From positions 90,567 to 154,566 of the forward strand of contig JALUYA010000032.1 in NCBI GenBank assembly GCA_027018875.1: DNA of 64,000 nt, read 5' to 3'. Positions 50,053 through 56,775 of the stretch are shown here, one piece after another. Position numbers and translations under genes: made by a program. Origin of the DNA: Gammaproteobacteria bacterium (GTDB lineage: Bacteria; Pseudomonadota; Gammaproteobacteria; JAKDMP01). Position 1 is the first letter of the stretch, and each line of letters starts with the position of its first letter. The notes under the pieces are model-generated. The model ran no database searches. It had not been told where the DNA came from and saw nothing but the letters and a program-made list of their open reading frames with translations.

Positions 50053-51807
50053 ATGACCGAGAACAATCATGCTGTAACGGCAAAACATTGGTTGAATCAC
50101 GAGGCACGCGCCGTGCGCTTCCCACTTGTGACCGCCATCGCGAGCGGCTCGATAAACGGCGGCTTGCTGATCGCACAGGCATTCTTACTCGCGCATCTGG
50201 TTGACCACACGATCTTTAAGCACCAATCGGTTGCCTCGCAACTGGTACCCTTTGCAGCCCTGCTCGGCGTCTTTCTGCTACGCGCAATCTGCGTCTACGC
50301 CGGCACCCGGGCGTCCATGCGAGCGGGACTTGCAATCAAGGTCCGCACACGCGCGGCGCTTCTCACCCACATTCATAAACTCGGCCCGGTGTGGAGCATG
50401 GCACGCGAGCCGGGCGAACTCGCCAATACCGTGGTAGACGGTGTTGAGGCGCTGCACAATTACTACGCACAATATCTTCCACAAGCGAGCCTTGCGGTTA
50501 TCGTGCCTCTTGCCATCCTCGTCGTGGTATTTCCAATAGATTGGATCTCGGGCCTGATCCTGGCCGGTACCGCACCGCTTATCCCCCTGTTCATGGTGCT
50601 GCTGGGAAAAGGGGCCGCGGCACTCAACCAGCGCCAGTGGTCCCGCCTGAGGCGACTGTCGGCGCACTTTCTGGAAGTGCTTGCCGGACTCGGCACGCTC
50701 AAGGCCTTCGGTGCGGCACGCGCCGAGGTCAAATTGGTCGAAAAATTGTCCGAAGCCTACCGCAAAAGCACCATGAACGTGCTGCGCATCGCTTTCCTGT
50801 CCTCGTTTGCGCTCGAATTCCTCGCTACCGTGAGCATTGCGATGGTAGCCGTACTGGTCGGCTTTCGCCTGCTGTGGGGTGAGGTTCCCTTCAGTGCGGG
50901 ACTCACGGCGCTGTTGCTGGCGCCCGAGTTTTATCTCCCGCTGCGCAATCTCGGAAACGCCTATCACGCGCGCCTCGGCGCGGTCGCCGCAGCCGAGCAG
51001 ATCGCCGCTATTCTTGCCACGCCGGTGCCCGCGTGGGCAGGCACCCGGAGGTTTCGGCCCGGCGCCGCCTTCACGCTGGAGTTCGAGTGCGTGAGCTTTT
51101 CCTACGCCACGGGACCGCCCGTGCTACGCCGGATCAGCTTCGAGATTCCGGCGGGAAACCATATTGCCATCATCGGCCCTTCGGGCGCCGGCAAAAGCAC
51201 GCTGCTTTATCTCCTACTCGGGTTCGTACAGCCTGCGGAGGGCCGGATTCTCGTCGACGGACAGGCGCTAGAGACGCTTTCCCTGGCCGACTGGCGCCGC
51301 GACATCGCCTGGGTACCGCAACGCACCCACCTGTTCGCGGGCACCATTGCGCAGAACATCGCGCTAGGCGCCCCGGGCGCCGGGCGCGCAGCCATCATCG
51401 CCGCCGCGGAACAAGCACACGCCGATGAGTTCATTGCCGCCCTGCCGCGCGACTACGATACGCCGGTAGGCGAGGACGGCGCCGGGCTTTCGGGCGGCGA
51501 AATCCAACGTATCGCCCTCGCCCGCGCGTTTCTACGCGATGCGCCGCTCGTTGTGCTCGACGAGCCGAGCGCGAGCCTCGACATGGCAAGCGAAGCGGCG
51601 GTCGGCGCCGCGCTCAAAACATTGGCCCGTGGACGCACGATAGTCACCGTTGCCCATCGTCTGCATACGGTACGCCAAGCGAATCGCATCGTAATGTTAG
51701 AAGCCGGGCGTATCGTCGCCATGGGCACACACAACACCCTGGTCGGGCACGAGGGTCCGTACCGGCGCCTACTCGATGCCGCGCCGGCACTCGTGGATCC
51801 GGCATGA
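50053..51807 (+). CDS. cydD: Thiol reductant ABC exporter subunit CydD
   Basis: Half-transporter that, with CydC, moves glutathione/cysteine or a heme-related ligand across the inner membrane and is needed to assemble cytochrome bd. It has 584 residues: six-helix membrane domain (about 20-330), then an ABC domain with GPSGAGKST, a complete LSGGEIQRIALARA signature and a VVLDEPSASLD Walker B. It overlaps cydC as ATGA. This copy has canonical ATPase motifs. Confidence 0.93.
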   Translation: MTENNHAVTAKHWLNHEARAVRFPLVTAIASGSINGGLLIAQAFLLAHLVDHTIFKHQSVASQLVPFAALLGVFLLRAICVYAGTRASMRAGLAIKVRTRAALLTHIHKLGPVWSMAREPGELANTVVDGVEALHNYYAQYLPQASLAVIVPLAILVVVFPIDWISGLILAGTAPLIPLFMVLLGKGAAALNQRQWSRLRRLSAHFLEVLAGLGTLKAFGAARAEVKLVEKLSEAYRKSTMNVLRIAFLSSFALEFLATVSIAMVAVLVGFRLLWGEVPFSAGLTALLLAPEFYLPLRNLGNAYHARLGAVAAAEQIAAILATPVPAWAGTRRFRPGAAFTLEFECVSFSYATGPPVLRRISFEIPAGNHIAIIGPSGAGKSTLLYLLLGFVQPAEGRILVDGQALETLSLADWRRDIAWVPQRTHLFAGTIAQNIALGAPGAGRAAIIAAAEQAHADEFIAALPRDYDTPVGEDGAGLSGGEIQRIALARAFLRDAPLVVLDEPSASLDMASEAAVGAALKTLARGRTIVTVAHRLHTVRQANRIVMLEAGRIVAMGTHNTLVGHEGPYRRLLDAAPALVDPA

Positions 51808-53534
51808 AACTTCTGCTGCGCCTCCTGGCCCTCGCTCGCCCAACCCGCTGGAGTTTCGCACTGGGTGCGCTACTTACGCTCATCGTCGTGCTTGCCAACG
51901 TGGCGCTGCTCGGGCTTGCCGGCTGGTTCATCGCGGCGATGGCCGCGGCGGGCCTCGCCGGCGCCAGCATCAACTATTTCACCCCGGCCGCGGGCATTCG
52001 CGCATTCGCGATTCTGCGTACCGTCGGGCGCTACCTCGAGCGGCTGATCAATCACGATGCGACGCTGCGCCTGTTGAGCCGCTTGCGGATCTGGGTGTAC
52101 CGTCGCATCGAACCGCTGGCACCGGCCGTGCTCAGCCGTTATCGCCGCGGCGACGTGCTCACGCGCCTGGTGGCCGACGTCGACACGCTCGACAACGCCT
52201 GGCTGCGGGTGTTTTCGCCAGCCCTGGTGGCGGTCTTCTCCACCGCCGCCATGATCGTTTTCCTGTTTTTCCTCTCCGCGCGGATCGCTTTCCTGGACCT
52301 CGGCTTGCTAGCCATAGTCGGGATCGTATTTCCATTTCTAACGCACCGGCTCGGGCGACACTCCGCGGGCCGCGCCACGGCCACCGCCGGGCGGATCAAG
52401 GCCGCGCTGGTGGAGGATTTTTCCGGGCTCGCCGAGCTCCAGGCACTCGGGGCCGATACCGCCCGGCGCGAGGCCGCCGTGCGGCACAACCGCGGGCTGG
52501 CACAGGAGCAGGATCGCGGACTTCGGATCGAGGCCATCGCGCTCGGCCTGATCGTGCTCGCAACCGGGACCGCGCTCGGCCTGACCTGGCTGCTCGTCGC
52601 CCCGGATGCGGCCCGCGGACACATGGATCCGCTCTACTTGCCGCTACTCGTGTTCTTTGTGCTCGCCAGCCTGGAAGCCGTGCAGGGGCTGCCCGGCGCC
52701 TTCCGCGCCCTCGGTGACACCTTGGCCGCCGCCGAGCGGGTATTCGAAATCGCCGACGAAACGCCTATCGTCACCGAATCCGTCCTGCCGGTCAACATGG
52801 TAGAGAACCACGACCTCGCCTTCGATTCTGTGCGCCTGCGTTACGCCCCGGGGCTAGGCTGGGCGCTGGATGGCGTGAGCTTCGAGCTGAGCGCCGGGGC
52901 CGCCATCGCCGTGGTCGGCCCCTCGGGTGCCGGCAAGAGTTCACTGGCCCACCTGTTACTACGGTTCCGGGACGCCGATGCGGGTACGATCAGCCTCGGC
53001 GGGCACGCGATCGGCGACTATGGCCTGGAAATATTGCGCGCGCAATTCGCCTGGTCCGCCCAGTCTACGCGCCTGTTCAGCACCACGCTCCGGGAAAACC
53101 TCCGCCTCGCTCGCCCCGCGGCAGATGACCAGGAGCTGTGGGCGGCGCTCGACACCGTCGGCCTCGCAACCGAGGCGCACGGGTTCGAGCGCGGACTGGA
53201 CAGTTTCGTTGGAGCCGGCGGCATGATGCTCTCGGCCGGCCAGGCCCGGCGCCTGATACTCGCCCGAGCCTGGCTCAGCGCCGCGCCGATCCTGCTGCTG
53301 GATGAACCCACCGAAGGGCTCGATGCGGCCAACGAGCGCGCTCTCATCCGCGCCTTGGCCGAGAACCGCGGGCAACGCAGCTTGCTTCTGATCACCCATC
53401 GCCTCGCCGGGCTCGAGCGGATGGACGAAATCATTGTCATGGATCGCGGCCGCGTGATCGAACGGGGTCACCACGATGAGTTGATTGCTCACGACGGTTT
53501 TTACCGCCGCATGGCGGATTATCTGCTCGCCTGA
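51804..53534 (+). CDS. cydC: Thiol reductant ABC exporter subunit CydC
   Basis: Partner of CydD. It has 576 residues with a six-helix membrane domain beginning LLRLLALARPTRWSFALGAL and an ABC domain with GPSGAGKSS and LLLDEPTEGLDA. The ABC signature reads LSAGQARRLILARA rather than LSGGQ, a small departure that may lower activity of one composite ATP site. It is followed 76 bases later by cydA. Confidence 0.93.
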   Translation: MKLLLRLLALARPTRWSFALGALLTLIVVLANVALLGLAGWFIAAMAAAGLAGASINYFTPAAGIRAFAILRTVGRYLERLINHDATLRLLSRLRIWVYRRIEPLAPAVLSRYRRGDVLTRLVADVDTLDNAWLRVFSPALVAVFSTAAMIVFLFFLSARIAFLDLGLLAIVGIVFPFLTHRLGRHSAGRATATAGRIKAALVEDFSGLAELQALGADTARREAAVRHNRGLAQEQDRGLRIEAIALGLIVLATGTALGLTWLLVAPDAARGHMDPLYLPLLVFFVLASLEAVQGLPGAFRALGDTLAAAERVFEIADETPIVTESVLPVNMVENHDLAFDSVRLRYAPGLGWALDGVSFELSAGAAIAVVGPSGAGKSSLAHLLLRFRDADAGTISLGGHAIGDYGLEILRAQFAWSAQSTRLFSTTLRENLRLARPAADDQELWAALDTVGLATEAHGFERGLDSFVGAGGMMLSAGQARRLILARAWLSAAPILLLDEPTEGLDAANERALIRALAENRGQRSLLLITHRLAGLERMDEIIVMDRGRVIERGHHDELIAHDGFYRRMADYLLA

Positions 53535-53610
53535 TTCCTAGAACCGGTCTAGGCGGAGGCCCTCAACATGATAAAGTAGACTAATTCCAATATAATTGGA
53601 GCACGCCGCA

Positions 53611-55194
53611 GTGGAACCCACTCAACTGGTCGTGGATCTCTCGAGGTGGCAATTTGCCATCACCGTCCTCTACCACTTCCTGTTCGTGCCACTCACAATC
53701 GGCCTCGCGGTGCTGATCGCGGCGATAGAGACCGTGTACGTGGTCACCGGCCGCGAAATATTTCGCGACATGGCGAAATTCTGGGGCAAGCTGTTCCTGA
53801 TCAACTTCGCTCTCGGCGTCGCCACCGGCCTCACGATGGAGTTCCAGTTCGGAACCAACTGGTCCTTTTACTCGTATTTCGTCGGCGACGTGTTCGGTGC
53901 GCCGCTTGCAATCGAAGGCCTGATGGCCTTTTTCCTCGAATCGACATTCGTCGGGCTCATGTTTTTCGGCTGGGACCGGCTATCACGCGGCAAGCACCTG
54001 TTCGTTACCTACATGGTTGCGCTGGGCTCGAATCTTTCCGCCTTGTGGATCCTGATCGCCAACGGTTTCATGCAGGCGCCGTCAGGCGCGCGCCTCGATC
54101 CGTTCACGATGCGGTTGCAGCTGTCGAGCTTCGCCAATCTCATCTTCAACCCCGATGCCCAAACCAAGTTCGTACACACGACGGCGGCCAGCTACGTGCT
54201 CGCGGCCGTTTTCGTGTGCGCGGTAAGCGCCTGGTACCTGTTGCGCAAGCGCCATGTCGAACTCGCGCGACGCTCCTTCCGCATGGCCGCGATCTTCGGG
54301 CTTTTCGCATCGCTCGCCGTGATCACCCTCGGCGATGCCTCCGGCTTCAAAGATGTTGGCGTCCAGCCGCCGAAGATCGCGGCCATGGAAGCCATGTGGC
54401 ACACGGAAAAAGCACCCGCCGGACTCAACCTGATCGCCTTCCCGAGCAGCCGGGAACAGAAGAACCTGTGGTCGCTCAGCGTGCCCTGGATCGGGGGAAT
54501 GATGCTCACGCATGCCTTCGACAAGCCCATCCCCGGCGTCTTCGAACTCGAAGCCCAGGCCCGGCGCCGAATCTACAATGGCATCCCGGCGCTACTGGCG
54601 CTGGAGCGATTGCAAAAAACCCCCGGCGACAACCGGGCGTTAACGACCTTCCGCCAACACGAAAAGGACATCGGTTACGCCTTCCTGCTGCAGCGCTACG
54701 CGCCGAATGTCGCAAAGGCCACGCCGGCTCAAGTCGAGCGCGCGGCCCGCAAGACCATTCCGTCGGTTCCGGTGGTTTTCTGGGCCTTCCACCTGATGGT
54801 GTACTTCGGCTTCACGATGCTCGCCTTTTTTGTGCTGGCGACGATGTTTTCGCTTATGCGCAGCGAGTACCGGCGCCGATGGTTCCTGCGCCTGTCCTTG
54901 TGGCTGCTCGTGCTGCCATATCTTACCGTGGAACTGGGCTGGATTACCGCCGAGATGGGGCGCCAACCGTGGACGGTGTACGGCATACTGCCCACGTGGC
55001 TTTCCGCCTCGACCCACAGCGTCGCGTACATGATCTTCTCGCTCGCGGGCTTCATCGGGCTTTACACGGTATTCATCGTAATCGAGATCTACCTAATGCG
55101 CCGCGCTATCATTGAAGGGCCCGCCACGGCGCCGGGAAAAGATGACAATACCCAGGCCCTGCCCACGTTCGTTCTCAAAGGAGGCTCCGCATGA
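53611..55194 (+). CDS. cydA: Cytochrome bd ubiquinol oxidase subunit I
   Basis: Quinol-oxidising, heme-bearing subunit of cytochrome bd, a high-affinity oxygen reductase. It has 527 residues. Heme ligands are visible in context: a His in the ITVLYHFLFVPL segment, a His in KFVHTTAASYVL, and a Met in FWAFHLMVYFG. The quinol loop (PPKIAAMEAMWHTEKAPAG) is the long E. coli-like form with Lys and Glu, and GRQPW is present. I choose the GTG at 53611, nine bases after GGAG, rather than the TTG at 53596. It overlaps the next gene by four bases. Confidence 0.95.
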   Translation: MEPTQLVVDLSRWQFAITVLYHFLFVPLTIGLAVLIAAIETVYVVTGREIFRDMAKFWGKLFLINFALGVATGLTMEFQFGTNWSFYSYFVGDVFGAPLAIEGLMAFFLESTFVGLMFFGWDRLSRGKHLFVTYMVALGSNLSALWILIANGFMQAPSGARLDPFTMRLQLSSFANLIFNPDAQTKFVHTTAASYVLAAVFVCAVSAWYLLRKRHVELARRSFRMAAIFGLFASLAVITLGDASGFKDVGVQPPKIAAMEAMWHTEKAPAGLNLIAFPSSREQKNLWSLSVPWIGGMMLTHAFDKPIPGVFELEAQARRRIYNGIPALLALERLQKTPGDNRALTTFRQHEKDIGYAFLLQRYAPNVAKATPAQVERAARKTIPSVPVVFWAFHLMVYFGFTMLAFFVLATMFSLMRSEYRRRWFLRLSLWLLVLPYLTVELGWITAEMGRQPWTVYGILPTWLSASTHSVAYMIFSLAGFIGLYTVFIVIEIYLMRRAIIEGPATAPGKDDNTQALPTFVLKGGSA

Positions 55195-55403
55195 CGACCT
55201 CGGAACTGCTGCGCTATGCCGGATGGTTCGCGCTTGCCCTATTAGCGCTCGCGGGTGCCGCGATATTGAGCTACTGGGCGCCGTGGTACTTTGCCTGGGT
55301 GGTCGGCACCGTCATGATCATCCTGATAACCGCCTTCGCCGGTGCGCTGTATGAGCGCCAGGCACGCGAGCAGGGCGCGCACGGCGAAGATCCTCTCAAA
55401 TGA
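55191..55403 (+). CDS. CydX-like small subunit with an extra N-terminal transmembrane helix
   Basis: A 70-residue, two-helix membrane protein encoded between cydA and cydB. Residues 32-40 read WYFAWVVGT, nearly the start of E. coli CydX (WYFAWILGT), and the following helix and charged tail (ALYERQAREQG) correspond to CydX as well. Residues 1-30 add a second hydrophobic helix that CydX (about 37 residues, one helix) does not have. The ATG has the strongest ribosome binding site in the operon, AAAGGAGG six bases upstream, and overlaps the cydA stop, so the long form should be translated. Known CydX stabilises the hemes of cytochrome bd and is usually encoded after cydB. Confidence 0.8.
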   Translation: MTTSELLRYAGWFALALLALAGAAILSYWAPWYFAWVVGTVMIILITAFAGALYERQAREQGAHGEDPLK

Positions 55404-55422: not shown

Positions 55423-56577
55423 ATGGAAGCCTATGCTGTACTGAAAGTGATCTGGTGGCTGCTTCTGGGGGTCCTATTCATGGGTATCGGCATCATGATC
55501 GGCCAGGATATGGGAGTCGGCACCTCGCTGCGCTATCTTGGACGCACGGACCGGGAGCGTCGCGCGGTACTCAACATGATCGGCCCGCACTGGGACGGCA
55601 ACCAGGTCTGGTTTATCCTCGGCGGCGGAGCGATTTTCGCCGCATTCCCCACGGTCTACGCAACCCTGTTCTCGGGGCTCTATATCGTCATGCTGCTGCT
55701 GTTGTGGTCGATGATCATCCGCCCGCTGGGTTTCGAGTACCGCAGCAAGCTGGATTCGCCCCGATGGCGCGAGCGCTGGGATTGGGCATTATTCCTGAGC
55801 GGCTTCATTCCCATGCTTGTCTTTGGCACCGCCATCGGCAACGCGCTTAGGGGGTTCCCCTTCCGTTTCAACGAGATTATGCAGTCGTTCTACCCCCACG
55901 GATTTGGATTCTATACCCTGTTCAACCCCTTCTCGGTCCTCATCGGGGGGGGGATGGCGGTCGCGCTCTCGCTCTACCAGGCGGGCGCCATGGTTTCCCT
56001 GCGTTCCGAGGGCCTCATCCTCGCACGAGCAAAGCGCATGATGCGCGCCGCCGCAGTGCTCGCCATGGTGATTTTCACCATAGGCGGCATCTGGCTGAGC
56101 CAGCTGAACGGCTACGCGCCGAGCGGGACGATCGATCCGGCCATGCCGGCGAACCCCCTTGCGAGTTCGGCGATAATGGCAAAAGGCGCCTGGTTGCACA
56201 ATTTCTTTACGCACCCAGCACTTTTCATCGTACCCATCCTGGTGTACATCGCACTGCTGGCCGGATCCTGGTTTACCCGCCGCAACCGACCGCAATGGGC
56301 CTGGTGGTCGGGCGCTATTGCATGGATGGCGACCATAGGCACCTTGGGCGCCGCGATGTTCCCGATCCTTGCGCCTTCCTATGTGAACATCGATCAAAGC
56401 CTGACGGTGTGGAACGCGAGTTCTTCGCCGCGCACGCTGGCCTGGATGCTCGGCTTCGCCCTGGTCTTCATCCCGCTGATTCTCTTCTATACCGGTTGGG
56501 CCTTCCGGGTGATGCGCGGGAAAATTCGGCCGGAAGATATCGCCCAACGCGACAAGAAGGGCGAGGAAAGCTACTGA
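55423..56577 (+). CDS. cydB: Cytochrome bd ubiquinol oxidase subunit II
   Basis: Second large subunit of cytochrome bd. It has 384 residues with about eight or nine transmembrane helices. The N-terminal FMGIGIMIGQDMGVGT, IGPHWDGNQVWFILGGGAIFAAFP and PLGFEYRSK segments are typical, and the end matches proteobacterial CydB. It lies 19 bases after the CydX-like gene with an AAGGTG site, completing a cydDCAXB operon. No ybgE-like gene follows. Confidence 0.94.
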   Translation: MEAYAVLKVIWWLLLGVLFMGIGIMIGQDMGVGTSLRYLGRTDRERRAVLNMIGPHWDGNQVWFILGGGAIFAAFPTVYATLFSGLYIVMLLLLWSMIIRPLGFEYRSKLDSPRWRERWDWALFLSGFIPMLVFGTAIGNALRGFPFRFNEIMQSFYPHGFGFYTLFNPFSVLIGGGMAVALSLYQAGAMVSLRSEGLILARAKRMMRAAAVLAMVIFTIGGIWLSQLNGYAPSGTIDPAMPANPLASSAIMAKGAWLHNFFTHPALFIVPILVYIALLAGSWFTRRNRPQWAWWSGAIAWMATIGTLGAAMFPILAPSYVNIDQSLTVWNASSSPRTLAWMLGFALVFIPLILFYTGWAFRVMRGKIRPEDIAQRDKKGEESY

Positions 56578-56775
56578 AAAGGTTTTTCGCGTGACGCTCA
56601 AAGCCTCAAGCATGCGGGGGGTTGTTTGGATATTGGCTCCACTGGCGTTGGTAGATGCGAACCGTACCTCGAAGAGGTTCTCCTGATGAGCGGGCCGGGG
56701 CTTTTGGCGAACATGACGACAAAGTATTCCTTGGCGCCGAGGCCGCAGCCAAAGCCTAGAAGGCGGCGATCCGAT

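Follow-up and report, generated by a model that had tools for sequence, protein, structure and literature searches.

The window (the whole 64,000-nucleotide stretch of DNA analysed here) contains a 70-codon open reading frame between cydA and cydB, and this locus raises the question of whether the frame encodes a CydX with an added transmembrane helix and, if so, where that helix would sit in the oxidase. The original prediction held that the protein is a new form of CydX, translated from the full-length start, with the extra helix in the site of CydH/CydY. We found support for a CydX with an added helix and a full-length start, but not for the newness of the form or for the CydH/CydY site. 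Specifically, the product of positions 55191-55403 is very probably a full-length two-helix CydX, the small third subunit of a long-Q-loop cytochrome bd-I oxidase.

The gene cluster has the order cydD-cydC-cydA-cydX-cydB, a long-Q-loop bd-I operon, with all genes on the forward strand. The operon starts with cydD (50053..51807; TIGR02857, E 7.9e-192), which is overlapped by cydC (51804..53534; TIGR02868, E 3.5e-128) at an ATGA; both encode subunits of the thiol reductant ABC exporter and score above the family cut-offs. The cydA gene (53611..55194; PF01654, E 1.4e-162) has a GTG start at 53611 and an alternative TTG at 53596, and encodes a bd-I type protein with a long Q-loop. The best PDB matches of this CydA are E. 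coli AppC and CydA, its haem ligands (H19, H186, and M393) are kept, and its Q-loop segment has the same length as that of AppC (146 residues between the same markers). The cydB gene (55423..56577; TIGR00203, E 6.7e-110) begins 19 nt after the cydX stop.

The cydX gene (55191..55403) encodes the 70-residue protein MTTSELLRYAGWFALALLALAGAAILSYWAPWYFAWVVGTVMIILITAFAGALYERQAREQGAHGEDPLK. Its ATG and the cydA stop share an ATGA overlap, and a near-perfect Shine-Dalgarno sequence, AAAGGAGG, at 55177..55184 pairs with the anti-SD with a duplex energy of -11.6 kcal/mol. The Kyte-Doolittle profile has two maxima (~1.85 and ~2.24), indicating two separate hydrophobic segments, and the AF2 model (mean pLDDT 86, pTM 0.48) consists of helices at residues 3-29 and 31-63. 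The extra N-terminal helix (residues 3-29) corresponds to 55197..55277. The CydX core helix, WYFAWVVGTVMIILITAFAGALYE (residues 32-55; 55284..55355), is defined by the PF08173 stretch and the alignment with E. coli CydX, and WYFAWVVGT occupies residues 32-40. The predicted coordinates, length, WYFAW position, preceding hydrophobic segment, excellent ribosome binding site, coupling to cydA, and cydA-cydX-cydB order were all borne out.

The motif YxxWxxGx15E/D is present in 97% of CydX homologues (PMC4325964), and the window protein matches it exactly with Y33, W36, G39, and E55. Genome-wide, no stretch matches PF08173 better than this protein (E 0.018); it scores 17.4 bits versus the curated cut-off of 26.2 and reaches neither the Pfam nor the NCBIfam (TIGR02106) cut-off. 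Among the 19 family members of the aligned set, 12 and 13 matched PF08173 and TIGR02106, respectively, at E ≤ 0.01. E. coli CydX is the best PDB match (E 0.072), and alignment of the core with E. coli CydX gave a score of 60, compared with 22 ± 4.5 for shuffled sequences. At the sequence level, the assignment as CydX is carried by the motif and homology and not by a profile cut-off. The assignment also fits the operon because the window CydA is of the long-Q-loop type with the haem ligands kept, as expected for an operon that includes cydX. The window protein shares the motif residues Y, W, G, and E, the WYFAW start, and the operon role with E. coli CydX and AppX, whereas the latter two are 37 and 30 residues long with one helix and are encoded after cydB and appB, respectively.

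The premise that known CydX proteins have 30-40 residues and one helix no longer holds. A form of CydX with a second helix at its N-terminus was reported as the "grey clade" (Allen 2014, PMC4325964) and again by Degli Esposti 2015 (PMC5322542), and it is common in acetic acid bacteria. The claim of novelty for the two-helix form therefore mostly fails, and what is new here is only where the gene lies, between cydA and cydB, together with the unusual linker. The window protein is 37-48% identical to seven aligned two-helix CydX members. It resembles the two-helix forms known from acetic acid bacteria and other organisms in length (~60-75 residues), in its two hydrophobic helices and WYFAW core, and in its association with a long-Q-loop CydA. 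It differs from them in that its gene does not follow cydB and in the linker, which is SYWAP instead of GDxGP. The locus is one more case of a subunit form already on record, and among the cases sampled it alone has this gene order and this linker. CydZ (DUF2474, PF10617) is likewise a small, hydrophobic subunit of bd oxidases that is extended at its N-terminus, but it belongs to short-Q-loop/CIO operons whereas the window operon is of the long-Q-loop type, and a profile search of the window gave no PF10617 match.

Relatives were collected from a scan of species genomes (12 loci) and from profile searches, which added further loci. The profile searches found relatives in 72 of the 299 genomes from one alphaproteobacterial order. 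They also occur in 22 of 31 genomes of one order in the class to which the window belongs, and as single cases elsewhere; a search for near relatives returned chance matches only. After removal of identical DNA, 63 sequences remained with the window included (~60 distinct relatives), and in many genomes the full-length relatives adjoin cydAB. With few exceptions they have a common plan, consisting of a basic N-terminal tail, a hydrophobic helix, a G-D-x-G-P linker, the WYFAW core, and an acidic tail. Helix 1 of the window protein can be aligned to the known two-helix subgroup, with tblastn matches over residues 5-67 at 41-51% identity. The pooled dN/dS values from 93 close pairs of relatives, which are not independent, were ~0.35 for helix 1 and ~0.12 for the core. 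The low value for helix 1 indicates translation and selection of this helix in the relatives; given the homology, the same most likely holds in the window. The database search suggested for long WYFAW-type CydX proteins thus led to a family in which the extra helix is conserved and under purifying selection.

Two outlying matches were observed in these searches. A divergent two-helix relative (L062; G666:C1:704462-704644) has WYLIW in place of WYFAW, the linker GTLGK, and a GTG start, and is located after cydB. Searches of plasmids gave one partial match, a CydX-like ORF annotated as a hypothetical protein on a conjugative Thioclava plasmid (NZ_CP019439.1:105996-106118), which matches in the core only.

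Gene order was mapped, as had been suggested, at 85 loci with a family match, some of the non-window ones being the same genome fetched twice. The order was cydA-cydB-X in 81 loci and cydB-X in one locus at a contig end, and cydX follows cydB in all of these 82. The order cydA-X-cydB was found in the remaining three, all from the window's own genome. The term "cydAXB" was not found in the literature. A position after cydB is typical for cydX and not defining, because orphan copies have been reported (PMC4325964). The G-D-x-G-P linker, a subgroup feature that was defined in the present analysis and not in the literature, is strongly conserved in the 63 sequences (G 98%, D 94%, G 98%, and P 94%). 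The window protein has SYWAP at this place, and it may therefore turn differently from its relatives. In comparisons of CydB, the window CydB takes a basal position, on a long branch, in the two-helix group and is separate from the two one-helix operons; this placement is unsure owing to the branch length. From this one case, the simplest reading looks like a single local gene move in the window lineage accompanied by a diverged linker. Relocation of cydX between cydA and cydB would bring it into translational coupling with cydA.

The two stretches, each membrane-spanning in length and hydrophobicity, most plausibly form a hairpin. The AF2 model of an Acetobacter relative is similar (helices at residues 2-27 and 29-62, pTM ~0.5); in both models a single residue separates the helices, which does not fix the inter-helix angle. 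A Foldseek search of the window model against the PDB gave no match. E. coli CydX binds TM1, 5, and 6 of CydA and has a cytoplasmic C-terminus (PMC6853902), and its N-terminus lies beside the periplasmic Q-loop in the E. coli structures, where Trp2 bonds the Q-loop residue Asp239 (PMC13189123). The topology assumed in earlier papers was the reverse of this. Dimerisation of E. coli bd-I and bd-II takes place at the outer face of CydX (PMC13189123, PMC8585947). The N-terminal tail is mostly basic and the linker is acidic in most relatives, and on the cryo-EM topology these features fit a helix 1 that starts inside and a periplasmic linker.

We infer the following arrangement from these comparisons. 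Helix 2 (residues 32-55) most likely sits where CydX does in E. coli, in the CydX groove of CydA (TM1/5/6), and from there would support the stability of the haems and the Q-loop. Helix 1 most likely begins in the cytoplasm and crosses outward, so that the linker would come to lie next to the Q-loop on the periplasmic side. Helix 1 would then lie against helix 2 on the side turned to the membrane, which in E. coli CydX serves for dimerisation, a placement whose chances we judge to be about even. There it would orient and anchor the CydX helix, and it may substitute for the dimer partner in ordering the Q-loop.

Three other readings of helix 1 were considered. Helix 1 might be a cleaved signal peptide that leaves a one-helix CydX as the mature subunit, since it is N-terminal and preceded by a basic residue; a signal role was suggested for the related DUF2474 extension (Degli Esposti 2015, PMC5322542), and cleavage would put the CydX N-terminus outside as in the E. 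coli structures. However, no AxA-like cleavage site is visible by eye ahead of WYFAW in the window protein, and the relatives conserve the GDxGP linker and helix 1 positions L-12, A-9, and V-8 beyond the needs of a discarded signal peptide, making this reading improbable.

Occupation of the CydH/CydY site on CydA, the TM1/TM8-9 cleft, with helix 1 shielding haem b595 as the product of a fusion of two single-helix subunits, is highly improbable. In its favor, both CydX and CydH touch TM1 of CydA in E. coli, a PF08173 search found no ordinary second CydX in the genome, and one relative (L061) outscored nearly all shuffled sequences against CydH. However, CydH sits on the side of CydA opposite to CydX (PMC8951039), and its site appears out of reach because helix 1 is joined by a short turn, modelled as a one-residue break, while CydH lies across CydA. 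The reading of helix 1 as a CydH was rejected on sequence similarity, as the window helix scored 15 against a shuffle mean of 15.8, and the comparison was not significant in four of five relatives. The placement in the original prediction is not supported by these data. CydH/CydY (YnhF) of E. coli is also a single transmembrane helix of the bd-I oxidase, but it is encoded outside the cyd operon.

Translation from the internal TTG (55266) alone, which is in the right place to give an ordinary one-helix CydX of 45 residues, is hardly credible: its anti-SD pairing is weak (just -3.9 kcal/mol versus -11.6 kcal/mol at the full-length ATG), in the inspected relatives a start codon precedes helix 1, and conservation of helix 1 at the protein level in the ~60 distinct relatives with other gene positions, together with its purifying selection, makes such translation very unlikely.

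Residues of CydA were compared across operons that included those of the window (53611-55194) and of loci L007-L018 and L127-L141. Asp239 is present in all 30 CydA proteins examined and in AppC. Tyr243 and Arg298 were described as conserved catalytic residues of long-Q-loop oxidases in a 2026 paper (PMC13189123), and both are present in the two one-helix operons sampled. In the two-helix operons, position 298 is His in 28 of 28, the window included, and position 243 is Phe in operons including that of the window, Arg in the acetic acid bacteria, or else Tyr. The two-helix group thus appears to depart from the reported conservation. A link between His at CydA-298 and helix 1 is only a lead, because His298 also occurs in E. 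coli AppC, whose partner AppX has one helix, and descent confounds the sample.

In E. coli bd-I, dimers are reported to form through CydX, and their formation is reported to order the quinol site. A two-helix CydX could conceivably replace the E. coli dimer partner, with helix 1 on the dimer face and the linker fixing Trp2 to the Q-loop, so that the monomer would be self-sufficient and its quinol site different, but we consider this combination rather unlikely. The two-helix group is without the free Met1-Trp2 start and CydA Arg298, both part of the E. coli mechanism, and for this reason it provides a natural test of the generality of quinol-site ordering by the CydX dimer.

The window genome has one bd oxidase match (PF01654) and two COX1-family matches (PF00115), and no cydB match was found in the other genome of the window's family (G001). 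Downstream of the operon, 13 nt past the cydB stop, a 31-residue ORF with a GTG start, MTLKASSMRGVVWILAPLALVDANRTSKRFS, occupies 56591-56686 on the forward strand; it is not CydX-like by eye and is probably a chance ORF.
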